DNA of 41,300 nucleotides from a virus: positions 1 to 41,300 of IMG/VR virus record IMGVR_UViG_3300010885_038679; one strand, given 5' to 3'. Shown piece by piece: positions 4,063 to 41,287 of the stretch; position 1 is the first letter of the stretch; each line of letters starts with the position of its first letter. The position numbers were made by a program, and so were the translations under genes. A model generated the notes under the pieces. It had not been told where the DNA came from and did no database searches. It saw only the letters and a list, made by a program, of their open reading frames with translations.

Positions 4063-4352
4063 TATCGTCCATAGCCTTGACGATATGCTTCTTGTTCTCT
4101 CTTGCGCTGTTCTTCTTGCCAACGTTGACGTGCGCCACGTTCACAAGCGGCTCTGTCACTGTGAAGTTGATATTGAGCACAGGTGCTGTTTACAATGATC
4201 ACTTGCTCGTGTGTTACCACTCTGTGCTGTGGCTGTGCCATTGCATTGCCAATGATAAGGCCAGTGGTACCAGCAAGTACAGCAGTACCTGTTCTACTTG
4301 CACAACCCGTCAGGGCCATAGTTGCTACGATTGCGATTAAAAGTTTTTTCAT
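4062..4352 (-). CDS. Small lipoprotein
   Basis: A 96-residue protein with a clear lipoprotein signal: MKKLLIAIVATMALTGC, lipobox LTGC with the modified cysteine at residue 17. A Gly/Ala stretch follows, then a charged Arg/Glu/Gln-rich tail. It should be exported and lipid-anchored in the host envelope. Candidate roles include superinfection exclusion or a spanin-like function, neither shown. The start at 4352 is chosen for its AAAGGAG ribosome site and the signal peptide; the longer frame to 4439 overlaps the neighbouring gene. Its stop overlaps the radical SAM start. Confidence 0.8.
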   Translation of the reverse strand: MKKLLIAIVATMALTGCASRTGTAVLAGTTGLIIGNAMAQPQHRVVTHEQVIIVNSTCAQYQLHSDRAACERGARQRWQEEQRKREQEAYRQGYGR

Positions 4353-22496: not shown

Positions 22497-22840
22497 TATT
22501 CATCATCCTCCTCTTCGGTGACCTGGAAGCTGGTTGCTAGTCCTTGGTCTACCATGGCTTGATTGATATTTAATGTGGGCTCACCGGCTTCGTTAGGAAT
22601 ATACGCCCAACCAAGCACACGACCTAACTTGGCACGTTTGGTGATAATAGGTTCCACGATGAGTCCATCTTTACATAACTCAGTTAAGACAATTCGCACA
22701 TCTGAGTCTTTGCCGCATGATGCAACTCCAAACAGTCTAATCTTTTGACGTGTATAAACATTAAAGCCAAGATCTAGTTCTACGTCTAGCATGTCAGTGC
22801 CGCGTACTTCTAGCAATCTTGCTGGATATAATCTTCTCAT
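22496..22840 (-). CDS. Staphylococcal-nuclease-like protein, probably inactive
   Basis: A 114-residue protein. The N-terminal YPARLLEVRGTDMLDVELDLGF..RQKIRLFGV and the C-terminal LGRVLGWAYI..LNINQAMVDQGLATSF follow the SNase (thermonuclease) OB-fold. The usual RLxGIDTPE, which supplies a calcium ligand and the catalytic Glu, reads RLFGVASCGKD, so the enzyme is probably not active as a nuclease. It may bind nucleic acid. A GAGG ribosome site is present, and it overlaps the SleB gene by 4 bases. Confidence 0.65.
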   Translation of the reverse strand: MRRLYPARLLEVRGTDMLDVELDLGFNVYTRQKIRLFGVASCGKDSDVRIVLTELCKDGLIVEPIITKRAKLGRVLGWAYIPNEAGEPTLNINQAMVDQGLATSFQVTEEEDDE

Positions 22841-23454
22841 TTTTCCTCTTTTGGTTTTACTCTATAAAAAACATGATTGCCAATTCGGTTAACAGAGTCT
22901 TTGACTCTTCGCCAAGTTGGTTTCCAATTAATATATGTAGCATGAAAGTGAGTCGCCCCATTGGTCGGATCTTCAACTTCCTCTTTGTTATTTAACGTAA
23001 TTAAGGCCACACCTATAGCCTGATGCCATAACTGTCCCGAAGGGAACCCAACACCAGGAAGGCAGGTCCAACTAAATTGGCAACCTTGCTTTACTACGCC
23101 ACATATGGTATTGGCGTAGCCTTCATCCAATCTGTTGAGAGTTACGTTTGCAACAGCCACCTGTCCTTTTAAACTTTCACCACGGCTTTCGTAGTAAATG
23201 TTTTCAGCTAAACATTTTACCTGCTTGTCGGCCAAGGCTTTTTTTGCACCACCAATTTCTTCCAAATTGATATGCATCAGTTTACGCATTCGCTGTTCCC
23301 ATGTTTCTTTGTCATTCACATGAGTTTGATTGGCTGTTCCAGACACGGCTGAAGAAACCAATAATAATGATAAAGCCAATATGATGACTTTAGATAGCAA
23401 ACGTGTGACCGCTTGCTGTGACATGCCCGAGAAATTCTTTGGGGTCATGTGCAT
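22837..23454 (-). CDS. SleB-type cell-wall hydrolase with N-terminal signal anchor
   Basis: A 205-residue protein. CLAENIYYESRGESLKGQVAVANVTLNR (81-108, putative catalytic E89) and ATHFHATYINWKPTW are hallmarks of the SleB/CwlJ hydrolase_2 family, which cleaves peptidoglycan glycan strands. Residues 19-38 form one hydrophobic segment rich in Ala, Ser, Val and Leu after a basic residue. This fits a signal peptide or a SAR (signal-arrest-release) anchor. It is a good candidate for the phage endolysin. A very strong ribosome site (AAAGGAGGTG) supports the ATG at 23454. Confidence 0.85.
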   Translation of the reverse strand: MHMTPKNFSGMSQQAVTRLLSKVIILALSLLLVSSAVSGTANQTHVNDKETWEQRMRKLMHINLEEIGGAKKALADKQVKCLAENIYYESRGESLKGQVAVANVTLNRLDEGYANTICGVVKQGCQFSWTCLPGVGFPSGQLWHQAIGVALITLNNKEEVEDPTNGATHFHATYINWKPTWRRVKDSVNRIGNHVFYRVKPKEEK

Positions 23455-23486
23455 GTTACACCTCCTTTCATTAGGACTACCTCCAG

Positions 23487-24005
23487 TCAGGCCTTTGACA
23501 ATAAAATATTATCTAAGACTTCACCTGGGTTACTGTATCCATAATCAACCTGGGTGTAGGTTATATTATGCTTCGCCAGTAACGCCGCAATCCTCTGATC
23601 GACCTCAATGCTAGCATCAAGGTTATGCACACGGCCGCGATCATCGAACCACGGGCCGCGCCCTAGAAATGCCACGTAGTTATCGTAACGCTTCCAGAGT
23701 TCTACTACTACCTGTTCCCACCCTGCAGGATAATCTGCAGGGGCATAGATAGCACTCAATAACACAGGACTATCTGTGATAACAAAATCAACTTGTCCCG
23801 CAAGCCTATGTATTCTTTGAACTTGTCTTCCAAATACGTATGCTTGATTTTCCAGCGCACAATGCCTGCCTTCCCAAACTAGGTCCTTAGCAACTTCCGT
23901 TACTAACTCTACATTCCACCCTCGGCGTTTTGCTTCATGATATAAGCCTGACGCTAGGGTGCTTTTACCCGCCCCTGGGCCTGCAATGACATTAATTACT
24001 TTCAT
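23487..24005 (-). CDS. P-loop nucleotide-kinase-like protein
   Basis: About 172 residues, with Walker A GPGAGKST (residues 9-16), a Walker B-like DFVITDSP and an Arg-rich lid (GRGPWFDDRGR). This is the fold of AAA_28/NadR-type phage kinases; the substrate may be a nucleotide or other small molecule. Two adjacent ATGs exist (24008 and 24005). With the promoter at 24012-24040 the mRNA should begin at about 24005, so the second Met may be a leaderless start. No Shine-Dalgarno is present. Confidence 0.75.
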   Translation of the reverse strand: MKVINVIAGPGAGKSTLASGLYHEAKRRGWNVELVTEVAKDLVWEGRHCALENQAYVFGRQVQRIHRLAGQVDFVITDSPVLLSAIYAPADYPAGWEQVVVELWKRYDNYVAFLGRGPWFDDRGRVHNLDASIEVDQRIAALLAKHNITYTQVDYGYSNPGEVLDNILLSKA

Positions 24006-24011
24006 CATGTT

Positions 24012-24040
24012 ATTGTAGCAAAATACTTATAATAAGTCAA
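24012..24040 (-). promoter_or_regulatory. Sigma70-type promoter giving a leaderless mRNA
   Basis: TTGACT (-35, 24035-24040), 17 bases, TACAAT (-10, 24012-24017) on the minus strand. The -35 box directly abuts the T-run of the terminator upstream. The start codon at 24005 or 24008 lies within 4-7 bases of the -10 box. Confidence 0.85.
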
Positions 24041-24067
24041 GAAAACAGGGCAACCAATGTGCCCTGT
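24041..24067 (-). terminator. Rho-independent terminator ending the radical SAM operon
   Basis: A perfect 8-bp stem ACAGGGCA / TGCCCTGT (24045-24052 with 24060-24067), 7-base loop, followed on the minus strand by TTTTCTT. It lies 64 bases after the stop of the secreted nuclease gene and overlaps the next promoter. Confidence 0.88.
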
Positions 24068-24130
24068 CTAGTGATACCGTATGATGCGGTTTTAAGTTTT
24101 CACAATTTATTTACGTCATTAACACTAATG

Positions 24131-24946
24131 TTATTCAGCATTTTTGCCACATTTGGCACGTTTGGCATTGGTCAATGCACCAAAGTCTACTTTCCATTCT
24201 TCGCCCACTGCTACTTCTTTGGCACCTGCTGGATACTCATAACTAACACCAGCTTCCTTTTGAATCTGTGCAATCTTAACACGGAACTTGGTTAAGTCAT
24301 TGCCCAAGTTAACATATGGTTTTGTGTGTGGAAATGTCCATCCGGCAATTTCTTTTGTAGCATTATTAATTACAATTTTATAGTAACCATGCGGAACAAT
24401 TACACCGGCGCCAATGGTAGGATCACCAGCGCCATAAAATGCGCCAACGTATATGGTAAAAGCCTGGTTGTGTTGGACTGTCCAACCTCTTATAGACGTC
24501 TCTAGCAACTTCCAGATTCCCCTGTTTAAAGAGCCGTGCTGAGGATACATGTTTGTCATTAAAAAACTTTCGTATTCTACAATCTCACTCCATGATAAAT
24601 CACCATCCGGAGCGGCATGCCCTTTGTCATATCCTGTGCCAGCATAGTCGTCGGGCTTTGCACCACCAACTACACTCTTGTCAGCAACAAACGCATTTGT
24701 TCGTGGCCAGCATCCAATTGCATTTGGTGGAGTTAATGTATAACTTACATAAGCTGGAATTTTTGCAGGAGCATCATACGCAACTAGATATGCTTCGCGG
24801 CAAATTGGTTTTGCATCACGTTTTGTTTCAGCAAAACCATAAGGTGCGTGTACTTTACATGCAGCCAAGGGCAATGGCGGCCGTTGTTCCCATGCATATG
24901 ATAGATTAGCAAAAACTGCTAATACTAATACCAAAATCTGTTTCAT
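24131..24946 (-). CDS. Secreted DNA/RNA non-specific endonuclease
   Basis: A 271-residue protein with a cleavable signal peptide (residues 1-18, LSYA then W). The NucA-type core follows: DKGH (D107-H110, the DRGH motif with Lys for Arg), TNMYPQ (N132) and LNRGIWKLLE (N141, E149). These enzymes degrade DNA and RNA without sequence preference using Mg2+. With a signal peptide it should act in the periplasm or medium: scavenging nucleotides, degrading competing phage DNA, or thinning released host DNA. It is the last gene of the radical SAM operon. A 34-base repeat lies before its ribosome site. Confidence 0.88.
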   Translation of the reverse strand: MKQILVLVLAVFANLSYAWEQRPPLPLAACKVHAPYGFAETKRDAKPICREAYLVAYDAPAKIPAYVSYTLTPPNAIGCWPRTNAFVADKSVVGGAKPDDYAGTGYDKGHAAPDGDLSWSEIVEYESFLMTNMYPQHGSLNRGIWKLLETSIRGWTVQHNQAFTIYVGAFYGAGDPTIGAGVIVPHGYYKIVINNATKEIAGWTFPHTKPYVNLGNDLTKFRVKIAQIQKEAGVSYEYPAGAKEVAVGEEWKVDFGALTNAKRAKCGKNAE

Positions 24947-24954
24947 TAGAAAAT

Positions 24955-24988
24955 TCCTTTAAAACAATACTTATCAATAAACGGGTAT
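24955..24988 (-). repeat. 34-base intergenic repeat, copy 1
   Basis: Plus strand CCTTTAAAACAATACTTAT within a 34-base block that recurs at 26557-26590 with three differences. It covers the end of the carbamoyltransferase gene and the AAAGGA ribosome site before the nuclease. It may be a phage promoter or an RNA processing or leader element, or the trace of a local duplication. Confidence 0.6.
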
Positions 24989-26431
24989 ATTATGTAGGCT
25001 TTGAAATCTTAGTGCATCTGCCCAAGTGTTGACCAGGGGTTCACCTTTGATATTCAAACTTGTATTCATCAAGATGGGGCAACCTGTGCGAGCGTTCCAT
25101 TCTTCTAGAATACTTCTAAACAAAGGATTATCTCGTTCAGTTACTGTTTGTACTCTGCTGGTATTGTCTACATGGCAAACACCTGGTAGCAAGTCAGGAG
25201 TCCTGCAACGTGCCACGAACTGCATGTAAGGACTGTCCTTGACCGGCATGTCAAAGTATGTGTCGGCATGTTCTGCTAATACTGCTGGCGCAAATGGTCT
25301 AAACTGTTCGCGCTTCTTGACAGTGTTCATTCTCAGCTTGGCATCTACACCTCTAGGGTCGCAAAGTAAACTTCTATTGCCTAAAGCTCTTGGGCCAAAC
25401 TCTGTACGTCCGTTTGCCAGTGCAACAACTTTGCCTGCTTCTAAGTCATCTACAAGTGATTTGATGTCTACATCTTGTTTAATATCTGTGCCCAAGTAAG
25501 GTCCTGACCATTTTAAATGGCGTTGTGTGTATGCGGCAACAGCACCAATGGCACTACCAGAATCGCCGGGGTTGGGCATAATCCAAATATTTTTAAAGAT
25601 GCCGCTTCTTGCAATAACAGAGTTTGCTACACAATTGAGAGCAACACCGCCCATGAAAATTAAATTGTCACTTGTGGTATTTGCTTTGATTACTAATACA
25701 GTTTCTAATAGGTATTCTTCTGCAAGTTTTTGTACACTTGCGGCAATATCAAATTTTGAGGCAGGACTATCACATGGCTCCCACCAAGAACAACCACGAT
25801 GTAAATTATGTCGCAGTTTAAAATCAGGTGGTGCCCATTTCCTAAAGAATGTTTCTCTTAATTCTTCAACGTACCGAGGTGTGCCATGAGCGGCCATGCC
25901 CATGAGAATATATTCTTCTTCGTTGGGCTTTAGGCCAAGCCATTGTGTCATTGCTGTGTAGAATAATCCAAAGCTGTTGGGGTAACGCTTACGCCAACGA
26001 TTGACCATCTTATCTTTACGTGCTTCCCAGATACTGACTGTGTCCCATTCACCAATCGCATCTACGACTAAGATACTAGCATCTTCATATGGACTGGTGT
26101 AATAGCCGGCTGAAGCATGACTATGATGATGGCCAACATAGTTAACGGGCAAGTGATCTAATCCCACTGCACGTAGTTGGTCACCAGGAACAATCCGCCA
26201 TGGCCGTTGACCAGAAATCAATCTACGTAGGTCTTTTTGTACGGGCCGTTCAAACCATACCAGTTCGGTTGGTTCACCATACTGCCGCATGTCTGCCAAC
26301 ATGTCTGCATTTAGCAGATTATCGTTCTTAACTCTACTGTAGCGTTCTGCATGTGCGGCCCACACAATCCGATCTCCATCAATTAATGCCAGACTGGCAT
26401 CATGATTTTGTGCTGTAATACCAAGTATCAT
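24974..26431 (-). CDS. NodU/CmcH-family carbamoyltransferase
   Basis: A 485-residue protein. The N-terminal domain has ILGITAQNHDASLALI, HHHSHA (metal-binding histidines) and LVVDAIGEWDT. The middle has GGVALNCVAN and the C-terminal domain has TEFGPRALGNRSLLCDPR and NTSLNIKGEP. This is the full NodU layout: carbamoyl phosphate and ATP are used to O-carbamoylate sugars or antibiotics. The phage substrate is unknown; a modified nucleobase, sugar or peptide are candidates. It starts 3 bases after the stop of a 37-codon gene that ends PFIY. Confidence 0.92.
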   Translation of the reverse strand: MILGITAQNHDASLALIDGDRIVWAAHAERYSRVKNDNLLNADMLADMRQYGEPTELVWFERPVQKDLRRLISGQRPWRIVPGDQLRAVGLDHLPVNYVGHHHSHASAGYYTSPYEDASILVVDAIGEWDTVSIWEARKDKMVNRWRKRYPNSFGLFYTAMTQWLGLKPNEEEYILMGMAAHGTPRYVEELRETFFRKWAPPDFKLRHNLHRGCSWWEPCDSPASKFDIAASVQKLAEEYLLETVLVIKANTTSDNLIFMGGVALNCVANSVIARSGIFKNIWIMPNPGDSGSAIGAVAAYTQRHLKWSGPYLGTDIKQDVDIKSLVDDLEAGKVVALANGRTEFGPRALGNRSLLCDPRGVDAKLRMNTVKKREQFRPFAPAVLAEHADTYFDMPVKDSPYMQFVARCRTPDLLPGVCHVDNTSRVQTVTERDNPLFRSILEEWNARTGCPILMNTSLNIKGEPLVNTWADALRFQSLHNIPVY

Positions 26432-26556: not shown

Positions 26557-26590
26557 TCCTTTAAAACAATACTTATTAATATACAGGTAT
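26557..26590 (-). repeat. 34-base intergenic repeat, copy 2
   Basis: Second copy of the block at 24955-24988 (31 of 34 identical). It again spans the end of one gene and the ribosome site of the next, here the microprotein. Confidence 0.6.
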
Positions 26591-27333
26591 TACAGCAATG
26601 CCTTGAGGCTGTCAACAACTATGCGGTTGAAATCGCCTCTGCTACCACCATGCGAAATAATGTGTATTCGTGGAGTATCACTGTTGTTCCAAACGGAGTG
26701 ATGGTTGCCAATGTCAACCAAGCAAGCATTGCCTGTTTCTTTAAAAGGAACATATCCCTTACCATCCATTTTAAACTCACATCCTTTGGGATTGTTTAGT
26801 GCTACGTTGATAGGTCCAAGAAAATGTTCTTGTCTGTCTTGATGTGGCTGTATGTAACCTTGTGGGTCTAGCCACATGTAACGCAATCGTTGATAATTGT
26901 GATTAGGAAATACATCACGAAAGTAACGTGTGGTTTCTGGACAACGTTCTGTAATTTCATCGCACCACTTGTACACAATGTCTGCTTGTGTTTTACCTGC
27001 GTTATCAGAGTATGCTTCCCAGTGTCCTGTCTTGTCCCATGCTTCGCCGTGTAAGCAAATGCTCTTCCAGCCAAGGTTTGCATACTCGGGATTTTCGCCT
27101 GGAGTAGTACGATGCATTACAAACAAGTCTTCCAAGCCAAATGCTTCTTTTAACATTGTTTCAAATGGCGCACCGGGCAATATCAGCGGCAAGTATGGCC
27201 AACCGGATTGGCTAATAATCCAGTCAACTAATTGTCCTTCGTGTTCAAATGTAGGAATTTCTTGCGTTTTAAAATCCATGGTCCATGGATTATCAATATC
27301 GTTAAAGAACTCTTGTATTACTCGTGGAATCAT
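26590..27333 (-). CDS. Asp/Asn beta-hydroxylase-like oxygenase in the radical SAM operon
   Basis: About 247 residues from the ATG at 27333, which overlaps the upstream stop (ATGA). YIQPHQDRQEHFLGPINVALNNP gives HxD (H164, D166). VDIGNHHSVWNNS gives the distal His (H211 or H212) and TPRIHIISHG the arginine (R222). It has an Asp-Arg-hydroxylase-like core with an N-terminal extension of about 140 residues. Its place between the unknown proteins and the carbamoyltransferase suggests it works on the same product as the radical SAM enzymes. Confidence 0.82.
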   Translation of the reverse strand: MIPRVIQEFFNDIDNPWTMDFKTQEIPTFEHEGQLVDWIISQSGWPYLPLILPGAPFETMLKEAFGLEDLFVMHRTTPGENPEYANLGWKSICLHGEAWDKTGHWEAYSDNAGKTQADIVYKWCDEITERCPETTRYFRDVFPNHNYQRLRYMWLDPQGYIQPHQDRQEHFLGPINVALNNPKGCEFKMDGKGYVPFKETGNACLVDIGNHHSVWNNSDTPRIHIISHGGSRGDFNRIVVDSLKALL

Positions 27334-28721
27334 TTTATTTGTCCTACGTGTTGCCAAGCACTACTTCCTGTATCTGTAGTACCACATATTTGTAAACTAT
27401 TATTATTTGCTTTTAAATCATTAATGAATTTTTCGTACAAATCTTTTAATTCGCTTGGACGGAAATGTCTTAAACTTGCTTCAGTGTAGAAACTATTGCT
27501 AAACCAAATTAAGTTGTTTCCCGGATGCTGTTTCATATCATTAACCAAGTCTTGGTAGTTACTGTACAAGTTTGTTTTTAAAAACTTATGTGGCAATTTA
27601 CGATACTTGTCCCACAGTTCTAACCAAGCTTGTTCGCCACCAAAGTATTCCATAGTCTTGTTCCACTCGGGTGTATAATCACGGCCTACAAACCAAATTG
27701 GTCTAAAGCCAGTATCAATTTCTGTTTGGTATTTGTTTACTGCGGCAAGATAATCCCGCCCATCCCATGTTTCGAATAGCCATTGTTTAAATGCCAATGC
27801 GGAATCACTGTAATCAAAATAAACCATTTGTGTATTACTGTCCCAGTCACATTGATTCATTAATTGAATTGGCTTAAAGCCTGCGGCTACGCAATAGATA
27901 CTGTCTAATTTGGTATTCTTATTATAAGGGATATTGTCCGGGCGCATTGAATCAGTGTTAAACACATACACACTACCTTGGAATCCACTAAAGTCCATTA
28001 GGTCAATGTAACGCTTTTGATTATACTCAACTACTTGCACAGATGTATCACCGGCTAACACTTGTTCTAACTCGTTACCTACTTCGGGATATATGTGTTG
28101 TTTTAAGTTACGAATCTCGTCTGGGAAATTACCAATTGAGTATCCATGTTTAATCATAGTGCTAGCTAAATTCCAACCATCGCGCAACTGCCCTGTGTAC
28201 TGTCGTGTTTGTCCTGTTGGCTTGATTTCGTATGGTGTGTAGTCATCGTGAAAGTTGCTACTGCTTCTTACTACCAAGGGCAGTTCTGCTGTTGTAGTTT
28301 CATATCCGCCAAATTTTGGACTTCCTGCGGCACGCCAATGTTCCATATTAATTAAAAAACATTGATTATGTAATGAATAAAATCCATTTGATGGGTCCTT
28401 GGGATTGTCTTCTAATATGTGCGCCAATACACTATAGCCATTTGCTTCAGCATGATCAATCATCATTGTAACAAGACGTTCGTTATAACTACGATAACCA
28501 TAAGCCACTACATAAACGTAATCAGGTTTATTTAGGTCTGCCTTAGCAAGTATGCTGTCTACGTTTGTGTCTACAATAAGACTGGCATTTTTGTTGTTTG
28601 TCCAATTATAACTAACAATCTGTAAATTGACTGCAAAGTTAGTAATACCTCGTATGTGTTCTTGGTATGATTCTGATCTATTGTTGATCTGATTGTATAA
28701 TCCAAATTCTATTGTTTTCAT
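27330..28721 (-). CDS. Unknown protein of the radical SAM operon (I)
   Basis: About 463 residues, soluble, rich in Tyr, Trp and Asn, with no Cys-cluster motif and no transmembrane segment. Strand-helix patterns (PDYVYVVAYG, GSVYVFNTDS, RPIWFVGRDYT, NNLIWFSNSFYTE) suggest repeated alpha/beta units of a Rossmann or glycosyltransferase-like fold, but I recognise no family. The start is ATG at 28721, or GTG at 28727 overlapping the previous stop. It is tightly linked (4-base overlaps) to its neighbours on both sides, so it belongs to the same process. Confidence 0.75.
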   Translation of the reverse strand: MKTIEFGLYNQINNRSESYQEHIRGITNFAVNLQIVSYNWTNNKNASLIVDTNVDSILAKADLNKPDYVYVVAYGYRSYNERLVTMMIDHAEANGYSVLAHILEDNPKDPSNGFYSLHNQCFLINMEHWRAAGSPKFGGYETTTAELPLVVRSSSNFHDDYTPYEIKPTGQTRQYTGQLRDGWNLASTMIKHGYSIGNFPDEIRNLKQHIYPEVGNELEQVLAGDTSVQVVEYNQKRYIDLMDFSGFQGSVYVFNTDSMRPDNIPYNKNTKLDSIYCVAAGFKPIQLMNQCDWDSNTQMVYFDYSDSALAFKQWLFETWDGRDYLAAVNKYQTEIDTGFRPIWFVGRDYTPEWNKTMEYFGGEQAWLELWDKYRKLPHKFLKTNLYSNYQDLVNDMKQHPGNNLIWFSNSFYTEASLRHFRPSELKDLYEKFINDLKANNNSLQICGTTDTGSSAWQHVGQIK

Positions 28722-29674: not shown

Positions 29675-30922
29675 TTAACCTATAAATTCAAATAACTCAA
29701 GCTTACTAATATCCTTGCCGCGCCGTTGGCCAAACTGTTGGTAAAAACTGTAGCAGTCTTTGGCAAGTTTATCTTGGTTCTCAGCAACAGGCTGATTTAA
29801 TCTGGTCAACAAGCGTTGATAATTAGCAACTTCTGTGATATTTAGTTTGTGATCTGTACCTTGTATAAATGCTGAATATTTTGCAGAATAATGATCTAGT
29901 GCTTCCTGACTCAGGCAAGCAAAATTTTGGAACTCTGGATAAGATAAGAAGTTAAAATCTACAGTAATAGGTGTACGCATTTGTGTTCTTAGTTTGCCCA
30001 TGTCTAGTAAGAACTGATCAAAGTTTTGTAAGCTTACTGCATTGATGGTTGTCATAATAAAAATGTGATCCAGGCCAGCTTGATCTAACGTAAACACATT
30101 GTCAAGCCATTGCTGATAATCCATGCCATCACGTAGTATCTCTGCAACATGTCCTGCACTTTCGTTGCTGGTATAGATAGACACATTTTTAATACCTTTT
30201 ACTTTCTCAACGAATCGTTCTAATACAGTTGGTTTTTGGCACATGTTACTGTTGATAGCAATCTTAACTAGAGGATTCTTAGAGCGCACATGATCTAACA
30301 ATGTAAATGTTTCTTCATGCAACAACGGCTCTCCGCCAGTAACGCGAATAATGTCTATGTTATCAATTACACTGTCTAGCCAAGACCAAAACAATGTTAA
30401 GTCAACTGGGGACTCTTTGTATTCATCAGCAGGACGTTGATAATGTTTGCGAGTATCTGTGAAGATGTTGCTGTATGTTCCGTTGACTCGTATATCATTT
30501 AACCACTGACTACTAAAGTCAGCATTACAATAGGAGCATCCCAAATTGCAAGTCTTTTGAAACGCAAGTTCTAACACACGTGGTTTAAAGTTTGTTGCAG
30601 GGTAAAAATATTCTACTGCATCTAAATGATCAGGGTAGTTGCCACTCTTAATGTGTCGGTCGCTTGTTAGCCCTTGTTCTTCTAGTTTCCAGCAATAGCC
30701 ACACGCATCCGGCTTTTCACCATTGAGCATACGACTTTGCTGTTCTCTCTTGACAGGTGTGTTATAAAAAGTCTCAACTGTATTACCAACATCATGAAAT
30801 GGATTATGGTGGCAACTGGCAATCTTACCATTGTATAACCAAATGGTAGCTTCGTGAAACTTGGCCATACAAAACGTAGGGCTAGTTTCTTTAATCAATT
30901 GGTGCAGTTTAATTGTGTCCAT
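29675..30922 (-). CDS. Radical SAM protein, array member 1 (SCHH type)
   Basis: About 415 residues. The core motif is TCNLGCSYC (C125, C129, C132), followed by IRVTGGEPLLHEE. Before it lies an N-terminal cysteine module (C18; SCHH with C37; CGYCW with C74, C77) typical of twitch-domain radical SAM proteins placed N-terminally, probably for an auxiliary cluster. The C-terminus ends QRRGKDISKLELFEF, a motif seen in all seven members. The ATG at 30922 is preferred over TTG at 30928. It overlaps member 2. Substrate unknown. Confidence 0.88.
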   Translation of the reverse strand: MDTIKLHQLIKETSPTFCMAKFHEATIWLYNGKIASCHHNPFHDVGNTVETFYNTPVKREQQSRMLNGEKPDACGYCWKLEEQGLTSDRHIKSGNYPDHLDAVEYFYPATNFKPRVLELAFQKTCNLGCSYCNADFSSQWLNDIRVNGTYSNIFTDTRKHYQRPADEYKESPVDLTLFWSWLDSVIDNIDIIRVTGGEPLLHEETFTLLDHVRSKNPLVKIAINSNMCQKPTVLERFVEKVKGIKNVSIYTSNESAGHVAEILRDGMDYQQWLDNVFTLDQAGLDHIFIMTTINAVSLQNFDQFLLDMGKLRTQMRTPITVDFNFLSYPEFQNFACLSQEALDHYSAKYSAFIQGTDHKLNITEVANYQRLLTRLNQPVAENQDKLAKDCYSFYQQFGQRRGKDISKLELFEFIG

Positions 30923-32264
30923 GATCAACTATAATGTTTCGCAGGTCTTCAAATTCGGGAAATACCTGGTAAAAGTCTTCGCCACGTTTCATATCTAACC
31001 ATTGGTTCTTATCCCAATATAATTTCCACTCTGGGTCTGGTTCTTGGTTAAGCAAGTTTAGCACACTTTCAAATCCATTAATACAAAAGACTGGGTCGAG
31101 TACACTACTAAATTCATCATAGTACCAATGTTTATTTTTACGGTTTTCGAATGTTGGTTTAAAACTCTTTACCCAGTTAATGTGGTCAGTGTATAACACT
31201 CGCAATTTTTCTTTATGATGCTCTGGTAAACTTTTAACATTGTAAGCGGGCGGCCCAAACAACAAGTTTACATTTAAGTCATATGGTCCAATATATTTCT
31301 TTTCAACCCATTCGCGATGAAAGTCCAATACGTTATACACATTCATAATACTAACCGTAGGACTTAACAAGAAACGTATGTGTGGCACTTCATCGATCAT
31401 ACGCTGTCTATTTTCGACTACTTTGGCCCAACTAATGTTCTTTCTAATGTACTCGCCCTTTTCATGACTTCCGTCTAGGCTGGCACCAATGCTAACATTC
31501 TTAAATTGCTTCCAGTATTCAATAACATCAAATTTTGAGTGTGTCAGTTTACTAAAATTTGTGTTGTAGTATAGGTCAACATCAGTACGCCCGGTGTCTA
31601 TTAGAAATTGCAATATCTCATAATGCTGTGGAGTAATCAGCGGTTCGCCGCCGGCAAAATAGATACGCTTTACTGTTGTTAAGTTTCCTTTTAGTTCATC
31701 TACTGTTACATTAGCACTGGTAAATTGTATTGGTTGCGCTAGCTTATATTTCTTTTCTGGAAATTGAGTTATATACTCTTTTTCTTCAGGATACCAACTG
31801 GTACTATAGTGAGAAAAGCATGTGCGGCAACGTAAATTGCAAGTGTTATCAAATCTAATATCAATGTAATGTATAACTGGCTCTTCAACTGTATGTTCTT
31901 CTGTTATTGCATTACGAACGTATTCTTCTGCACCACTCCATTCGTGCATCCACTCTAGCATACCATGTCGCATACTTCGAGTATCAATTTCTTCATTCAT
32001 CCAACAACGTTCGCATTGTTTGTTTTTTACGCCTGCACTTAAATCTCGACGCATTTCTACAAAGTTTTGATGATTGTAAGTTTCTTTGAGTGGTACGCCG
32101 GCAACGATATCTGGGGCAAATTTATTGTTGCCAGCATTTTGTATACAGCAAGCACTTAGCTTATTGTTTGTATCAATGTAATAAGAAAAGAAAGGGGCAG
32201 GACAAAACGTTCCGTTGTTCTTTATTGCATTCCATTCTTCATCTGTAAAAATTTTCTTTGTCAT
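30909..32264 (-). CDS. Radical SAM protein, array member 2 (CPAPFF type)
   Basis: A 451-residue protein. N-terminal module FCPAPFFSYY (C21), ACC (C39, C40) and CERCW (C84, C87). Core TCNLRCRTC (C142, C146, C149) and IYFAGGEPLI. It ends KRGEDFYQVFPEFEDL. Its first 80 bases are almost identical to those of member 3 although the rest has diverged. It overlaps both neighbours. The N-terminal cysteines probably hold an auxiliary iron-sulfur cluster, as in SPASM/twitch proteins. Confidence 0.88.
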   Translation of the reverse strand: MTKKIFTDEEWNAIKNNGTFCPAPFFSYYIDTNNKLSACCIQNAGNNKFAPDIVAGVPLKETYNHQNFVEMRRDLSAGVKNKQCERCWMNEEIDTRSMRHGMLEWMHEWSGAEEYVRNAITEEHTVEEPVIHYIDIRFDNTCNLRCRTCFSHYSTSWYPEEKEYITQFPEKKYKLAQPIQFTSANVTVDELKGNLTTVKRIYFAGGEPLITPQHYEILQFLIDTGRTDVDLYYNTNFSKLTHSKFDVIEYWKQFKNVSIGASLDGSHEKGEYIRKNISWAKVVENRQRMIDEVPHIRFLLSPTVSIMNVYNVLDFHREWVEKKYIGPYDLNVNLLFGPPAYNVKSLPEHHKEKLRVLYTDHINWVKSFKPTFENRKNKHWYYDEFSSVLDPVFCINGFESVLNLLNQEPDPEWKLYWDKNQWLDMKRGEDFYQVFPEFEDLRNIIVDHGHN

Positions 32265-33553
32265 TTTCTTATACTTTTATTGTTAGGTGTGTTTACTATC
32301 AAATCAATGTATTCGGGAAATATTTTAGAGAAGTCCTCATCCCTATGCTGATCTAGCCATTGATTTTTTTCCCAATGTTTAGCCCAATTTGAATCACTGT
32401 CTTGCTGTAATAGTTTTATAGCATTTTCAAATCCGTTTATACAAAATTTAAAATTGCTAGATGTGTCATTTAAGTCACGGTCGAAAGAGTTAATCCACGC
32501 AATGTGTTCTGTATATATTTCTTCTAACTTTTTCTTGTGGTGGCTGGGTAAATTTTTAATATGATATTGCAGAGGAAAAGTTAGAATGTTAATACTAAGA
32601 TCGTAAGGACCTATATATTTCTTTTCCACCCACTCTCGGTGCAAATCTATCAGATTGTAAGCATTCAATAGACTTATTGTTGGACCTAATAAAAATTTCA
32701 CATGTGGTACTTCAACAATCATACGTTCTCTGTTAGCAACAACCTTTGTCCAACTGATGTTTTTTCGAATATATTCGCCTCGTTCATAACTACCATCTAA
32801 ACTTGCTACTACACAAACAACCTTAAATTTTTTCCAATAGTCAATGACATCATAAACAGAATGTGTTAGCTTACTGAAATTTGTAGTGTAATACAAGATT
32901 ACGTCGGTTCTTCCAATTTCAATTAAGTAGTCTAGTATTTCATAATGCTGTTGATTGATTAATGGCTCGCCGCCAGCAAAGTATATTCTTTTTACAGTAG
33001 TCAGATGTTTTTTTAAATCGTCAATTGCAACGTTTGCCTTTATAAATTGCTCATGCGCCATTACATGCCCGTTGGTTTGTTCCACATACAGTTTTTCCTC
33101 AGGATACCAAGTACTGCTAAATTTAATGCCGCATGAGCGACAGCGCAAATTACAAGTGTTATCAAATCTTATATCCATAAAATATATTACAGGATCATCA
33201 ATGCTACCGTCATCGTCGATTACACTTCTGACCTGCTCTTCTGAATGTTCCCAGTCATTCATCCAGCTTAACATTGTTTGACGATATGATTCTATTCCAA
33301 TATCCTCCAGTTTCCAGCACGAATTACATTGTTTATTTTTTACACCATTGACTAAATCCTGTCTTAGTTCTTTGAAACTGTGACTATTGTATGTTTCTTC
33401 TAAGGTAGTTATTTTACTGGAAGTGTCATGCTGACAACATGCACCTAGATTATTAGTTGGATCAACAAAGTAGGAAAAGAAAGGGGCAGGACAGAACGTT
33501 CCGTTGTTCTTTATTGCATTCCATTCTTCATCTGTAAAAATTTTCTTTGTCAT
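32261..33553 (-). CDS. Radical SAM protein, array member 3 (CPAPFF type)
   Basis: About 430 residues from the ATG at 33553 (MTKKIFTDEEW), which overlaps the upstream stop (ATGA). N-terminal module C21, C39, C40 and CNSCW (C76, C79). Core TCNLRCRSC (C134, C138, C141), then IYFAGGEPLI. It ends HRDEDFSKIFPEYIDL. It is the closest paralog of member 2, arising by tandem duplication, and the DNA here is more AT-rich than in member 2. Confidence 0.88.
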   Translation of the reverse strand: MTKKIFTDEEWNAIKNNGTFCPAPFFSYFVDPTNNLGACCQHDTSSKITTLEETYNSHSFKELRQDLVNGVKNKQCNSCWKLEDIGIESYRQTMLSWMNDWEHSEEQVRSVIDDDGSIDDPVIYFMDIRFDNTCNLRCRSCGIKFSSTWYPEEKLYVEQTNGHVMAHEQFIKANVAIDDLKKHLTTVKRIYFAGGEPLINQQHYEILDYLIEIGRTDVILYYTTNFSKLTHSVYDVIDYWKKFKVVCVVASLDGSYERGEYIRKNISWTKVVANRERMIVEVPHVKFLLGPTISLLNAYNLIDLHREWVEKKYIGPYDLSINILTFPLQYHIKNLPSHHKKKLEEIYTEHIAWINSFDRDLNDTSSNFKFCINGFENAIKLLQQDSDSNWAKHWEKNQWLDQHRDEDFSKIFPEYIDLIVNTPNNKSIRK

Positions 33554-34764
33554 TTGAACAATGGTTCCATCCATTCAGTAAACTCAAGTGGTAATATGTC
33601 TAGTATGTCTTCGCCACGTACTTCGTCATGTTGTCTGAACTTTGTATATAATCTTGTTAGATCTTTTGTATTAGGTAATGCACTATTCATATGATTTACC
33701 AGGCCCGTTACTACATCTGGATTTTCAGATCCGAAACTGCTGGACTTTAGTTTGTCTTCAATCATGTCTTTAATACGGTCTGGTATGGCCCACATAGTCA
33801 TGTGTTCTGGACTATGAATCAGGTTGTACCAAATTTGGAACTCGTGTGTATTTTCTTTAATCCAAGCTGTAAACTCTGGAATGTACCAAGCATTCAGCCA
33901 GCCAATTGTGTGGCTAACTGAAATATTTGTGTTATCTAGCAGTCCTTCTTGTTTCATCTTGCTGTAGGCCAGTATGTTTTCTTTTACTTCGTCCCACTTA
34001 CCAGGATGACGCAAGTAGTTATACATACTACCCATACCGTCAATGCTTAAACCAAGGCCAACACTCTTAAAATTATCGTTTAGGAATTTAACACGTTCGC
34101 CTGCAAAGATTGTAGCATTGGAGCTCATAGAAATATCAATGTCTTGACTGCGGCCGCTGGCAACTAGTTCTTGCCAAATATCGTTCCACTGTTGAATGTA
34201 AAATGGTTCACCGCCAACAATTTCCAAACGCTCTACTGTGCCCATCCACTCTTTACGATTCTTCCATAGTAGACCGTTTTTGTCTCCGCTTTGGTTGTGA
34301 ATCATAGTGTAACCATTGTTCCCGAATAGTTCCTTGTGTTCAGCCTGCCAAAGATTACTATGGCTAGGCGTACAACTACGACACTTCAAGTTACAAGCAT
34401 TACTAATAATCATTTGATACTCAGTTGGATTGCTTGGCTCTGCATCAAAATTTACCAATGACTCGTGCGTATCAGTTACATTACGTGTATAGATTTGACG
34501 TTTGCTACGATGTCCATTGCGTTCGTCCATGATACAAGTTTCACAACCTTCTGGCTTTTCGCCATCCCGGAAACCTTGTCGTAATGACTTCATGTAGTCG
34601 CTAGCAAAAATCTCTTTAATAGAGTTTGTTTGTACGTGCATAAACTTTCCATCATTGTCTTTGATGTAGTCTTTAAACAAACAACAAGGGCGCACCTTAC
34701 CATCAGGATCGTTACTAAATCCAGTCCACGGAAGTGTACAATACCACTTATCAGATGCTGTCAT
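33550..34764 (-). CDS. Radical SAM protein, array member 4 (twitch domain)
   Basis: A 404-residue protein. N-terminal WYCTLPWTGFSNDPDG (C9), RPCC (C27, C28) and CETC (C74, C77). Core ACNLKCRSC (C124, C128, C131), followed by LEIVGGEPFY and a second half with GLGLSIDGMGS. It ends EVRGEDILDILPLEFTEW. The N-terminal layout is intermediate between the CPAPFF and SCHH types and is the one most like annotated twitch-domain radical SAM proteins of aquatic phages. Confidence 0.88.
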   Translation of the reverse strand: MTASDKWYCTLPWTGFSNDPDGKVRPCCLFKDYIKDNDGKFMHVQTNSIKEIFASDYMKSLRQGFRDGEKPEGCETCIMDERNGHRSKRQIYTRNVTDTHESLVNFDAEPSNPTEYQMIISNACNLKCRSCTPSHSNLWQAEHKELFGNNGYTMIHNQSGDKNGLLWKNRKEWMGTVERLEIVGGEPFYIQQWNDIWQELVASGRSQDIDISMSSNATIFAGERVKFLNDNFKSVGLGLSIDGMGSMYNYLRHPGKWDEVKENILAYSKMKQEGLLDNTNISVSHTIGWLNAWYIPEFTAWIKENTHEFQIWYNLIHSPEHMTMWAIPDRIKDMIEDKLKSSSFGSENPDVVTGLVNHMNSALPNTKDLTRLYTKFRQHDEVRGEDILDILPLEFTEWMEPLFK

Positions 34765-36115
34765 ACCAACTCACAAATCTCGTATCTAGTACTTCTCTAA
34801 AGTTTTTATTTCTGCGCTGATCAAACTGTTCAATGAATATTTTTAAATCGTTGTGTGCATCTTCTTTGCTAATGTATGCTTCCCAATGGGGATTCTCTTC
34901 TGAAAGTATTGTAATAAGACGCTCAACATGTGCAATCTCAGTATCGTGGCAAAGCGTACGATTGTTAATTAACCACTGCTGGAAGTCGCCTACTAGTTCC
35001 ATACGCATTGCATACGGAATCATTTGTATACGCATAAACACAGGGTAGTGTACAAAATTACAACTAAGCTCTACACGTACCTTGCCATACTTCTTCTTTA
35101 AGTCACTGATCATGTTAAAGTAGTCAATCATTGACCAAATGCCAATGTTGTTGATACTTGTTGTAAAGTTTAGTTTATCAACAATATCAGAAGGGCTTTC
35201 AAGAACCTTGTAAACATTCTTTAACCATACTTCTTTTTCAAATCCATCACGGATATATTCTGTGTGCTCTAAACTGCTTTCGATGCTTGTGTGGATTGCT
35301 GTTTTGAAGCGTCCTGTCTTACTCAATAAACGGTCAAGTATTTCTTCTTTACATACCAGGTTACTGTTAATAGATAGGTCACCGGCAAACTTACCTTCCG
35401 AGAGACGATCCATGAAACGCCAAAAGTTTGGACTCATGGTTGGCTCGCCACCTGTTACACGAATCCATTGTAATGTTTTCTCTAGGTCAGGTAACCATTT
35501 AAAAAATGCTTCGGTATAAGGATTGACTTCGTCATCGCGTATAACATCTTCCGAAGAGTGTGTGCTGTAGCGTGAATCAGTTTTGAGCCCTACATATGGT
35601 CCGTTCTGCTTGATATCGTTTGCCCACTTGCTACTAAAGCTTGGCCCGCAATACGCACAAGCAAGATTGCAAGTGCGATCAAATGCAACTTCAATCATGT
35701 ATGGATCAGCGTTTAGCTGGCGTAACGGTCGCTTAAGGCCGTTTAGCTGGGGTACAGCGTTATCTGTCCAATTTGATAATAATTTTCTTGGTACAGCTTG
35801 TGTCTTGACATACCGATCACTGATACCGCCATTTGCTTCTACCGACCAGCAATAGTTACAACCAGATGGTTGCTCACCATCAAGCATACTTTGTCGCTCT
35901 TTGCGCTTTTGCGGAGTATTGTGTAAGCTACTGGGGTCATTAGGATCTAATTCAATCTTATGGAAGGGGTTGTGATGACAACTTGCTGTTGCACCTTGAT
36001 ACAACCAAATAGTTCCTTCAAACCACTTTGCCCCACAAAAGGATTTACTAACAGGGTCCATGTTTGCTTCTTTAAAGATAGTAAACTGGCGAGTATCGTT
36101 TGTGTTATTATTCAA
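34751..36115 (-). CDS. Radical SAM protein, array member 5 (SCHH type)
   Basis: A 454-residue protein. N-terminal SFCGAKWFEGTIWLYQG (C27), SCHHNPFH (C46) and CNYCW (C86, C89). Core TCNLACAYC (C149, C153, C156), IRVTGGEPTM. It ends QRRNKNFREVLDTRFVSW. Overlaps members 4 and 6. It shares with members 1, 6 and 7 the phrases AKW, SCHHP, GxxSDR and the VTGGEP strand, so these four form one subfamily. Confidence 0.88.
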   Translation of the reverse strand: MNNNTNDTRQFTIFKEANMDPVSKSFCGAKWFEGTIWLYQGATASCHHNPFHKIELDPNDPSSLHNTPQKRKERQSMLDGEQPSGCNYCWSVEANGGISDRYVKTQAVPRKLLSNWTDNAVPQLNGLKRPLRQLNADPYMIEVAFDRTCNLACAYCGPSFSSKWANDIKQNGPYVGLKTDSRYSTHSSEDVIRDDEVNPYTEAFFKWLPDLEKTLQWIRVTGGEPTMSPNFWRFMDRLSEGKFAGDLSINSNLVCKEEILDRLLSKTGRFKTAIHTSIESSLEHTEYIRDGFEKEVWLKNVYKVLESPSDIVDKLNFTTSINNIGIWSMIDYFNMISDLKKKYGKVRVELSCNFVHYPVFMRIQMIPYAMRMELVGDFQQWLINNRTLCHDTEIAHVERLITILSEENPHWEAYISKEDAHNDLKIFIEQFDQRRNKNFREVLDTRFVSWYDSI

Positions 36116-37472
36116 TTGAGTTAATCCAATCCATTAAGTCTGGGAATGCCTTTGCAAAGTCTTTGCCACGACGTTGGTCATACTGTTGATAAAAACTCTT
36201 AAAGTCTTTTTCTAGCTTTTCTCTTCCAAACGCATCCTTGTGAGGGGTCTTAACAACGTCCAAATAATCAATCAATCGTTGTGTTTGATTAAGTTCCATT
36301 TGGTGTAGCAATGGATTGTCCTTGTTCTTATCAAACCATACTTGCAATTTATCCTTTCGAATTTGACGCATTGCATCTGGCATTACTGTAGGACTTTGAA
36401 AACTCGGGAAACGCAAGATGTTCAAAGAAAAGACAGGAAAGTTCTTTCCATATTGTTTTTTAAAGTCTAGCATCCAGTCCAAGAACTCTGGCAAACTTTC
36501 TAAACACAGCAAGTTAATTGTACACATTACATGTAGTGTTTTAAAGTGTCCACTACTGGCAAGCTTGTGCATATTGCCAACCCACTGTTGCCAGTCCAAT
36601 CCATCGCGAATGTATTCTGCTTGAATACCTACTGCTTCATTGCTGGTATAGATTTCTAAATTATCAATGTACTGTGCTTTGTCAACTAACTTGTCAATTA
36701 TTTCATCCTTGCCACCCAAGTTACTGTTAATAGCAAGGCGCATGTTTTTGTTGCGCTTTTCGTTTGTGGTAAACCAATCTAACAATCGCCAAGTATGGGG
36801 ACTCATTAGCGGCTCACCGCCTGTTACACGTAACTCATAAAGTGTACGATGCAAGTCACTTTCCCACCATTTAAAGAACGCTTCAATGTAAGGATTACTT
36901 GGATTGTGATCATATAAGCCAGCAGATTCGTGTAAGTGATTGTAATGCCCGCGTCCGTCTGTGTGCAGATTAATGTAGTTGCCGTTCTTCTTTAGGTCGT
37001 TGACCCATGTTGTACTGAACGCCGGGTTACAATAAGAGCAAGCAAACTGACAAGTACGATCAAACGCAATTTCAAGTGTACGTAAGTTAAAGTCTTCGCG
37101 GTAATCCATTTCTGCGGCAGCTTCTAACAACTGATCATTATAGATAACGCTTTTGTACACGCGGTCACTAATGTTATCACGACCAATGTCTTCTACTTTC
37201 CAGCAGTACTCGCAACCAGATGGGCGTTCGCCATCTTGCATTTGTCTGCGCTCTTCTTTTTTATGGGCTGTATTGTGCAATGCTTTAGGGTTAAACTTAA
37301 CCTCTTGCTCATTAACTTGATGCGGTAACGGGTGATGACAAGAAGTGGTTTGTCCCGACCCTAGCCAAATAGTGGCATTGTACCATTTGGCCAAACACAT
37401 ACTAGGGCTCTTAGAATCTAGTAATGCTTTAATTTGATGATCCGTAGATCTGCCGTCTTTTCTTAGTGTCAT
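36108..37472 (-). CDS. Radical SAM protein, array member 6 (SCHH type)
   Basis: A 454-residue protein. N-terminal SMCLAKWYNATIWLGSG (C26), SCHHPLPH (C45) and CEYCW (C87, C90). Core TCQFACSYC (C141, C145, C148), with Gln in place of the usual Asn after the first Cys, and LRVTGGEPLM. It ends QRRGKDFAKAFPDLMDW. Starts at the base where member 7 ends. Confidence 0.88.
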   Translation of the reverse strand: MTLRKDGRSTDHQIKALLDSKSPSMCLAKWYNATIWLGSGQTTSCHHPLPHQVNEQEVKFNPKALHNTAHKKEERRQMQDGERPSGCEYCWKVEDIGRDNISDRVYKSVIYNDQLLEAAAEMDYREDFNLRTLEIAFDRTCQFACSYCNPAFSTTWVNDLKKNGNYINLHTDGRGHYNHLHESAGLYDHNPSNPYIEAFFKWWESDLHRTLYELRVTGGEPLMSPHTWRLLDWFTTNEKRNKNMRLAINSNLGGKDEIIDKLVDKAQYIDNLEIYTSNEAVGIQAEYIRDGLDWQQWVGNMHKLASSGHFKTLHVMCTINLLCLESLPEFLDWMLDFKKQYGKNFPVFSLNILRFPSFQSPTVMPDAMRQIRKDKLQVWFDKNKDNPLLHQMELNQTQRLIDYLDVVKTPHKDAFGREKLEKDFKSFYQQYDQRRGKDFAKAFPDLMDWINSIE

Positions 37473-39055
37473 TATTTTCTCAGTATATTATATGCTTCTT
37501 CAGCTAGCGTTGTCAATTCCGACAACTCCGGGAAGGTGGTTTCAAAGTTGGTACCGCGTCGGCTATCGTGCTCTTTAAAGAATGCATGAAAGTCTGCTCT
37601 TGCTGATGATAGTTCATCATCATATACTGGTTGATTTGCCCAATCATACAGTCGCTGAACTTTATCAACTTCATAATCTTTGAAACCTTTAAAAGGAGTT
37701 TCTTTTGATTCTAGATGTTCTCTCATAAACGCAATGCTTTCTTCTAACACTTTTAAGTTTTCTTTTGGTAATATTTTTAGACTCAGCCAATTTGGATCCA
37801 TTAACATTGGAACATCAAACCAAATTAACTGACGATTGGTGTTAAACTCTTGGCGTAGTTTTAAAATATTTTTTACATACTCCAGCCATCCTGGTATACT
37901 TAGCGCATTGAATGTTACAATGAAAGTCAAACTGTGCTTTTTGCCTTGCCGCAAGAATTTAGTTACATTGTCATACATAACTTCAAAATCTAATCCATTG
38001 CGAATATATTCTGCTTGCTTGCCCCAGGAGTCCAAGCTACAATAAAGCATGAAGTGATCAATGGCATTGGCATCTTCGAGTGCCGACAAGCTTGTTAAAA
38101 ATTTGTTCCACTGGTCACCTGGCGGACAGCAATTGCTAGTGATGCTTAAATGCAAATTAGGATTGATTGGCTTTTCAAGCACATAGTCAAATACTTTAAA
38201 AGTATTTTTATCCATTAAAGGTTCGCCTCCGGTCATACGGAAAGTTTGTAGTGTTGGATACACTGACGGGAACCAGTCCCAAAATGCTTTTAGATATGGA
38301 TTGTTTGGTCCGTTATCAGGTACCATGTTTGAATCAATCATCCATTGTAGATCGTTATGCTTGCCTCCTGATGGCAGCAAGTACGGACCATGCTTCTCAG
38401 CTTCCTTTTGCCACTCTGTACTAAGATGTGGACTACAGTAAGCACACTTAAAATTACATGCTTGGTTAAAGTTTACTTCAACATATCTAGGTAGCGGATT
38501 GCCACTGTGTCCATCCTTGGCAAGTTCTTGTAGTATACCCGGACGGAAAACATCTTTACTACGATATGCTCTGTCACTTAACTCCTCGCCCGAGTCTTCA
38601 ATGTCCCAACAAAAACTGCACTCCTCCGGACGAACACCATTAAGCATTTTCTTACGCTGTTCTTTTTTGTGTTTTGTATTATGAATAGCACCTGAATCTA
38701 ATGCAATTTCTGCCAAGGGAATATGATGTGCTGGAGGATGATAGCAACTATGAGTTTTTCCTGTAGGAATGTGTAAGCTTACATTGTACCATTTGGCCAA
38801 GCACATGCTAGGTGACACTTGGTTTATAATCTCAAACACCTTGCGAGTGTCTATTGCATAAATGCTTTTGAGGTTGCCGTCGACTGCTACTGCACCGTCA
38901 CCCTTTTTACTATTCACAAGTGCCAACTTTGCCTGTTCACGTTCAGCATCAGACATAAAGGTAACCAGCTTTGGTTCTTTTAATTCACCAATCTTACGCT
39001 TGATGGTGTCCTCGGATATGTATTTTGGACCGCCTACTTTATCAAATATATTCAT
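37472..39055 (-). CDS. Radical SAM protein, array member 7, first gene of the operon
   Basis: About 527 residues from the ATG at 39055. It has an extra N-terminal segment of ~80 residues (charged, ending INQVSPSMCLAKW) not present in the other members, possibly a leader-peptide- or partner-binding region. N-terminal cysteines C85, C104, C146, C149. Core ACNFKCAYC (C200, C204, C207), FRMTGGEPLM. It ends SRRGTNFETTFPELSEL. It is the promoter-proximal gene. The TTG frame to 39088 is rejected, since it runs into a terminator. Confidence 0.88.
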   Translation of the reverse strand: MNIFDKVGGPKYISEDTIKRKIGELKEPKLVTFMSDAEREQAKLALVNSKKGDGAVAVDGNLKSIYAIDTRKVFEIINQVSPSMCLAKWYNVSLHIPTGKTHSCYHPPAHHIPLAEIALDSGAIHNTKHKKEQRKKMLNGVRPEECSFCWDIEDSGEELSDRAYRSKDVFRPGILQELAKDGHSGNPLPRYVEVNFNQACNFKCAYCSPHLSTEWQKEAEKHGPYLLPSGGKHNDLQWMIDSNMVPDNGPNNPYLKAFWDWFPSVYPTLQTFRMTGGEPLMDKNTFKVFDYVLEKPINPNLHLSITSNCCPPGDQWNKFLTSLSALEDANAIDHFMLYCSLDSWGKQAEYIRNGLDFEVMYDNVTKFLRQGKKHSLTFIVTFNALSIPGWLEYVKNILKLRQEFNTNRQLIWFDVPMLMDPNWLSLKILPKENLKVLEESIAFMREHLESKETPFKGFKDYEVDKVQRLYDWANQPVYDDELSSARADFHAFFKEHDSRRGTNFETTFPELSELTTLAEEAYNILRK

Positions 39056-39072
39056 ATGTGCGTACTTAGCAT

Positions 39073-39078
39073 ATTGTA
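39073..39078 (-). promoter_or_regulatory. Possible -10 box of the radical SAM operon
   Basis: TACAAT on the minus strand, 18 bases before the ATG at 39055, but no matching -35 box: the expected position reads GCAATG and lies inside the terminator hairpin. Transcription may need a phage activator, or be readthrough from upstream. Confidence 0.35.
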
Positions 39079-39083
39079 AAAAG

Positions 39084-39108
39084 CACAAAAGGCCGCATTG
39101 CGGCCTTT
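39084..39108 (-). terminator. Rho-independent terminator
   Basis: A perfect 9-bp stem AAAGGCCGC / GCGGCCTTT (39088-39096 with 39100-39108) with a 3-base loop, followed on the minus strand by TTTTGTGCTTTTT. It ends the small-gene group upstream (39124-40892). Confidence 0.88.
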
Positions 39109-40900: not shown

Positions 40901-41287
40901 TTATACATCAAATGTAAATGATATCCTATGATGGTCTGTAGTATTAAGAGGTACTCGGTGTACACAGTCCAAGTCGAAACAAATCCAATCGCCTGTTTTA
41001 GCTCCTACGGGTATCCATTTGCCATCAATTGGTAGTTCAATGGGTATATCGTTTTCTATTAATTTTGGATAATATACAAAACTACCATATGATGTCCCTA
41101 CCCTTTTTGTTTCACTGTGTGTATGTGCAGGCAAGTCTGTATTAGTAGGGAGAATATTAAACCATCCATTTATAATATTTTCCTTACCAGACTGTTGTTT
41201 TATTATATCAACCAACGGCTTAAATTCTTCCCAGTGTTGTGGCATCAGATGCTCTAATTTATTTCTACGTAGATACATCGCCATCAC
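40901..41287 (-). CDS. Putative 2OG-Fe(II) oxygenase (PF13759-like), possibly cut at its 5' end
   Basis: About 128 residues visible. WFNILPTNTDLPAHTHSET (H55, H57), YGSFVYYP, GDWICFDLDCVHRVPLN (H110) and HHRISFTFDV (R121) match the short putative 2OG-Fe(II) oxygenases with two close histidines in the first motif. The frame is open to the right edge, so the true start may lie outside. Within the window, GTG 41287, ATG 41284 or ATG 41278 are possible. No ribosome site is visible before the edge. Confidence 0.7.
   Translation of the reverse strand: MMAMYLRRNKLEHLMPQHWEEFKPLVDIIKQQSGKENIINGWFNILPTNTDLPAHTHSETKRVGTSYGSFVYYPKLIENDIPIELPIDGKWIPVGAKTGDWICFDLDCVHRVPLNTTDHHRISFTFDV

Follow-up and report, generated by a model that had tools for sequence, protein, structure and literature searches.

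Why should one virus carry seven radical S-adenosylmethionine (SAM) genes in an unbroken row, as copies of one another or as the separate steps of a pathway? The question is raised by a 41.3-kb IMG/VR virus record (IMGVR_UViG_3300010885_038679, positions 1 to 41,300; the whole stretch is termed the window here), in which seven consecutive minus-strand open reading frames (ORFs), m1 to m7, together span 29675–39088. Comparison with related loci indicates that the array is old, with the four lineages m1, m2, m5/6 and m4 kept in one order in uncultured aquatic phages. It very probably constitutes a multi-step system whose members are not interchangeable, and the chances are about even that it is the phage-borne core of a multi-step pathway that tailors glycoconjugates.

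By sequence, all seven proteins are assigned to NCBIfam NF033640, the N-terminal-twitch (N-twitch) radical SAM subfamily, with scores of 254–334 bits over the full model, all above the curated 170-bit cut-off. Every protein carries a single CxxxCxxC, a single GGEP and four conserved cysteines in the N-terminal twitch, and the alignment columns C20, C39, C76, C79, C127, C131, C134 and GGEP are invariant across the array (the twitch cysteines of m2 are C26, C45, C87 and C90). Four genes, all on the minus strand like the rest, are of the SCHH type: m1 (37472–39055, with the variant SCYH; NF033640 E 1e-96), m2 (36108–37472; E 1e-92), m3 (34751–36115; E 2e-75) and m7 (29675–30928; E 1e-79). The other three are of the CPAPFF/CTLPW type: m4 (33550–34764, with CTLPW; E 1.5e-89), m5 (32261–33574; CPAPFF, E 1.8e-99) and m6 (30909–32264; CPAPFF, E 5e-99). 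Residues 9–77 of m4 also match Pfam SPASM (E 1.7e-9). The viperin model NF038283 is not reached by any member, the best score being 38.8 bits against a cut-off of 180 bits. An earlier note, made from the DNA letters alone, had described seven consecutive, same-strand, overlapping or abutting radical SAM genes with CxxxCxxC and N-terminal cysteines, divided into SCHH and CPAPFF/twitch types; the ORFs, motifs and NF033640 scores bear out the array, and the division holds as well. An eighth radical SAM gene in the window (2566–4122, minus strand; PF04055 E 8e-18) has an N-terminal half that looks B12-binding by eye and is not of the N-twitch family.

The longest ORFs overlap by 20, 4, 25, 14, 8 and 1 nt, in order from m7/m6 to m2/m1. 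Together with the genes for two companion proteins, P3 and P2, and a 2-oxoglutarate (2OG) hydroxylase, m1 to m7 make up ten successive minus-strand genes running from 39055 to 26590, separated by overlaps or gaps of a few bases. A terminator-like hairpin with a 9-bp stem followed by a T run lies just upstream of m1 (39108–39088, minus strand) and is likely to be the upstream border of the transcription unit. The m1 ORF is open up to a TTG at 39088; given the hairpin, its start is likely the ATG at 39055, as chosen in the earlier note. A perfect 12/12 sigma-70-like promoter (TTGACA-18-TATAAT; 37516–37487, minus strand) is found where m2 begins, and could be a chance occurrence.

Relatives were sought with the SCHH-type members as query, which gave at least 579 confirmed IMG/VR stretches, on contigs as long as 457 kb. 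The analysis covered the best 80 loci, which were picked by closeness to m2 and are thus not a random sample of the family; counts in them are lower bounds, as loci end at contig ends. In nearly all of the 80, m1 is followed by m2, an m5/6-like gene, an m4-like gene and a further type. When members were classified by clade profiles, the order m1, m2, m5/6, m4 was kept in 63 of 78 distinct loci, among which 5–6 radical SAM genes are typical and m1-m2-m56-m4-c5-P3 is the commonest string. A tree of 107 family members gathers each of the types m1, m2, m4 and m5/6 into a cluster of its own, with a representative from nearly every array; it is a quick tree with some long branches, which leaves its deep joins and a small number of inner nodes uncertain. 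The most conserved member is m2, with 57–83 % identity to its orthologues, while orthologues of m1 come first in most arrays.

A recent burst of duplication was considered and is rejected except for the m5/m6 pair, as the types group on the tree by array position. The only clear tandem copy in the window is m6 (60 % identity to m5). By the tree, m3 is an extra m2-like gene that also occurs in loci L095 and L148, and m7 is another that also occurs in L095. Between the window and L095, the closest relative with a full array, the proportion of nonsynonymous differences (pN) is 0.11–0.32 for m1–m7 against 0.76–0.84 for synonymous differences (pS); synonymous divergence is saturated in this pair, so that only the contrast of pN with pS is meaningful. 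As pN is well below pS, all seven radical SAM genes are under purifying selection. Ordered orthologues and the grouping of the tree by position support the earlier proposal of a multi-step system over redundant duplication, and the comparison of gene content in related phages that had been suggested with it recovers the same ordered lineages and recurrent companion genes.

The seven proteins have an N-terminal twitch, a radical SAM core and a C-terminal R-x-x-(D/N) motif in common, with R403 invariant. In the earlier note this C-terminal motif was read as a possible docking or recognition tail shared by the array. A regular expression for the motif (R..[DN] plus a hydrophobic residue) matched 311 of 459 phage tails and 26 of 59 bacterial tails, against shuffled expectations of about 94 and 9; it was too crude, and a profile was therefore used. 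This hidden Markov model (HMM) was built from the last 70 residues of 59 homologues, all from bacterial loci and almost entirely from Bdellovibrionota, and has the consensus LDKLRGEDFEEVFPEL. It recognises all seven of m1–m7 (E 2.2e-5 to 5.2e-14); at a threshold of E 0.01 it picks up 435 of the 505 tails from phages and the window, and the 600 control ORFs gave no match. The NF033640 model itself extends to the C-terminus. The array-specific docking tag is accordingly rejected, on the ground that the earlier note itself named, namely that the motif proves general: a profile built without phage sequences finds all seven. The motif is instead a signature of the whole NF033640 family wherever it was looked for, and the tail may bind something common to that family.

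The cellular homologues were sampled around Bdellovibrionota metagenome-assembled genomes (MAGs). NF033640 genes above the cut-off were found in 40 of 144 sampled Bdellovibrionota genomes, often in runs of two or more (loci L198–L206), and some adjoin family-2 glycosyltransferases. These tandem N-twitch genes resemble those of the window in family, C-terminal signature and occurrence in runs, and two of the MAGs (L092, L093) carry P2 beside N-twitch genes, one of them also P3. However, strands are often mixed in the bacterial runs, the neighbours differ and the m1-m2-m5/6-m4 order was not seen.

Four genes follow the array on the minus strand of the window. P3 (28724–29671; 315 aa) is a conserved companion protein with a confident structural model (pLDDT 83, pTM 0.82) that has no fold match in the PDB and matches only uncharacterised phage proteins in BFVD. 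P2 (27330–28727; 465 aa; pLDDT 88.7, pTM 0.87) has an invariant NFHDDYTP motif and more than 200 distant viral homologues, and its model suggests a likely GT-A-like fold, with Foldseek probabilities of 0.97–0.99 to COLGALT1 and other GT-A proteins at a whole-chain TM of only about 0.25. Next are an Asp/Asn beta-hydroxylase-type 2OG-Fe(II) oxygenase (26590–27357; PF05118 E 1.3e-11) and a NolO/TobZ-type carbamoyltransferase (24974–26431; PF02543 and PF16861), whose family, f7, comes after the array in related loci. For P2 and P3, and for f1, a family of the related loci, sequence searches of Pfam and the PDB yielded no informative match. In a second record, IMGVR_UViG_3300009164_004823 (L009/L010), P2 and P3 are 100 % identical to those of the window; this is apparently a separate assembly of one and the same virus.

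A P3 protein, at times in a longer form, adjoins both P2 and m1-m2 arrays, with array-type P3 similarity of E 1e-10 to 1e-20; the P3 profile was built from matched segments, as full fused ORFs had drawn in PF05118 hydroxylases. The hydroxylase is a separate gene beside P2 or, in many phages, forms the N-terminal part of a P2 fusion; in two it is joined to P3. A single protein in L033 (4447–7953) combines an Asp/Asn hydroxylase, a tryptophan halogenase (PF04820, E 1.3e-85) and P2, while in L013 (9791–13321) a B12-binding radical SAM domain is joined to P2; L020, L035 and L041 have proteins of similar length, and L069 does in part. Shared synteny and fusions led to rejection of the idea that P2 and P3 are unrelated neighbours, and both appear to belong to the array system.

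Further companions recur in the m2-anchored loci. Family f1, found in 73 of 80, has an invariant DxD and is glycosyltransferase-like by eye, with no database match; f3, found in 71 of 80, has a profile that matches glycogenin (E 1.6e-7). The tail-fibre-like family f8 (Peptidase_G2; PHROG tail fibre) is present in 57, the carbamoyltransferase f7 in 55 and array-type P3 in 53 of these loci. The typical arrangement begins with tail-fibre-like genes and continues with f3, f3, f1, the radical SAM array, P3 and the carbamoyltransferase. An amidinotransferase-like family, f27, occurs in 13 related loci (e.g. L171:17167–18195 and L097:18515–19573), and no window protein matched its profile. Neither m2 nor the tested P2 and P3 proteins had a match in 50,697 cultured-phage records, from which records close to the window were possibly omitted; searches of cultured phages with f1, f3 and f5 likewise gave no match. 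The cultured phages yielded only distant relatives, singly or in small groups, with K566 and KVP40 as examples from Vibrio phages. A literature search by family name (NF033640) returned no paper.

Ordered orthology, intact motifs, purifying selection, the resemblance of P2 to GT-A enzymes and the recurrent glycosyltransferase-like, carbamoyltransferase and tail-fibre-like companions are the grounds for proposing a glycoconjugate pathway. The hydroxylase–P2, P3–hydroxylase, hydroxylase–halogenase–P2 and P2–B12/radical SAM fusions indicate that these activities are tied together, and the pelagimyophage cassettes (PMC7029224) and the CP220 module (PMC2853527), both described below, are counted on the same side. 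Each radical SAM enzyme would make one change by means of a 5′-deoxyadenosyl radical, with the [4Fe-4S] cluster of its N-terminal twitch binding or oxidising the substrate, and the enzymes would act in series on one substrate class, a glycoconjugate. Together with the array, the hydroxylase, the GT-A-fold P2, the glycosyltransferases and the carbamoyltransferase may assemble or modify an uncommon sugar or side-chain group on a surface glycoconjugate. As the target, the tail-fibre glycoprotein of the phage itself is tentatively preferred, on account of the position of the array in relatives and the resemblance of the hydroxylase–P2 pair to hydroxylase–glycosyltransferase pairs. A glycan of the host envelope is a rather doubtful second target, proposed because the glycosyltransferases of similar pelagimyophage clusters were read in this way by the authors of PMC7029224. 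One might also speculate on an undescribed assembly line, in which five to seven specialised radical SAM enzymes in series would work with the new-fold P3, the 2OG hydroxylase and a GT-A enzyme. Some versions of the line would include a halogenase or a B12-radical-SAM enzyme, and it would place a chemically new decoration on envelope glycans or on tail fibres.

Several observations weigh against a glycoconjugate pathway, whose substrate is putative. The whole-chain TM scores of the P2 fold matches are low, and no recognised fibre gene lies beside the array in the window or in L095. P2 is missing from most m1-m2 arrays, and P3–hydroxylase–P2 is also found without N-twitch genes, near replication genes; the two modules are therefore separable. 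In addition, the fusions with a tryptophan halogenase point to an aromatic or peptide substrate no less than to a sugar. In a rather unlikely alternative, the radical SAM enzymes, hydroxylase and halogenase add crosslinks, hydroxyls or halogens to a ribosomal peptide or virion protein without any glycan, in the manner of ribosomally synthesised and post-translationally modified peptides (RiPPs). SPASM/twitch radical SAM enzymes often mature peptides, and a hydroxylase and a tryptophan halogenase are indeed fused to P2 in relatives. Although m1–m7 resemble many peptide maturases, they do so below cut-off, and no known RiPP maturase model reaches its own cut-off on them. Among the listed ORFs of at least 60 aa, a length that leaves room for a very short gene, the array showed no conserved short gene for a precursor, and its companions are glycosyltransferases and a carbamoyltransferase.

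That the family is simply prone to duplication, the copies acting in parallel on related substrates or being loosely selected cargo outside any pathway, is improbable. Tandem NF033640 runs in Bdellovibrionota, the m5/m6 pair and the extra m2-like genes m3 and m7 are what such expansion would leave, but mere expansion would account poorly for the same lineages in the same order at so many distinct loci or for purifying selection on all seven genes. Hypermodification of the phage genome as a defence against restriction has very little probability. Phage DNA-modification pathways do include radical SAM enzymes and 2OG oxygenases, and a window gene at 12464–13111 (minus strand) shows a weak resemblance to QueC-like queuosine biosynthesis in PHROG, confined to about 50 residues (E 1.6e-7). 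None of m1–m7, however, is of QueE type by NCBIfam cut-off, and no companions for DNA-base modification were recognised around the array in relatives, where tail-fibre and glycosyltransferase genes are found instead.

Membership of NF033640 by itself says nothing of the array, its gene order, its partners or its substrate, and that a phage may have several radical SAM genes is already known. Campylobacter phages CP220 and CPt10 carry 11 and 12, including an exchangeable five-gene module; in CP220 the five radical SAM genes, an amidinotransferase and two genes with a nucleotide-sugar-transferase fold lie downstream of baseplate genes (PMC2853527). The CP220 amidinotransferase, CPT_0086, is homologous to the f27 family found near arrays (E 2.6e-44). 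Unlike m1–m7, the CP220 radical SAM proteins are shorter, begin at CxxxCxxC and lack the N-terminal twitch; they give only partial, weak matches to the array-family profile (best E 2e-6), and neither P2 nor P3 was found in the 150 kb of CP220 searched. The module is thus a parallel case that belongs to another family. In pelagimyophages, the host-recognition clusters are described as holding radical SAM cassettes together with glycosyltransferases next to tail fibres (PMC7029224), and 12 radical SAM genes are counted in a TARA T4-like genome (PMC5332604). These are marine phages with several radical SAM genes each, and the likeness noted here is one of gene content. The P2 model recalls the folds of the collagen hydroxylysine galactosyltransferase COLGALT1 and the lysyl hydroxylase LH3 (Foldseek probability 0.92–0.99), and also those of ADP-glucose pyrophosphorylase and other GT-A proteins (mostly 0.9–0.99), with a whole-chain TM of about 0.25. 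Like LH3, P2 comes paired with a 2OG hydroxylase, as a neighbouring gene or within one protein; the hydroxylase, however, is of the PF05118 type, and no similarity of P2 to either protein appeared in the PDB sequence search. The novelty of the present system lies in orthologues arrayed in a fixed order, in the partner genes with their fusions, and in how widely it occurs among uncultured phages.

Large aquatic phages presumably draw a real benefit from so widespread a pathway, which depends on several oxygen-sensitive enzymes; should tail fibres or host surface glycans be what the array decorates, it would matter for phage–host recognition in lakes and oceans. The orthologous gene order offers a testable sequence of steps, and P3 offers a confident model with no known solved relative. 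Elsewhere in the window, 6279–7836 and 40901–41287 (both minus strand) hold further 2OG-Fe(II) oxygenases, namely a second PF05118 Asp/Asn-hydroxylase-type, a TauD-type and a 2OG-FeII_Oxy_5-like enzyme; a comparable set has been reported for two co-isolated cyanophages (PMC3037559). Genes for an endolysin, an AAA_28 ATPase and a DNA/RNA non-specific endonuclease (22837–24946, minus strand) adjoin the carbamoyltransferase.

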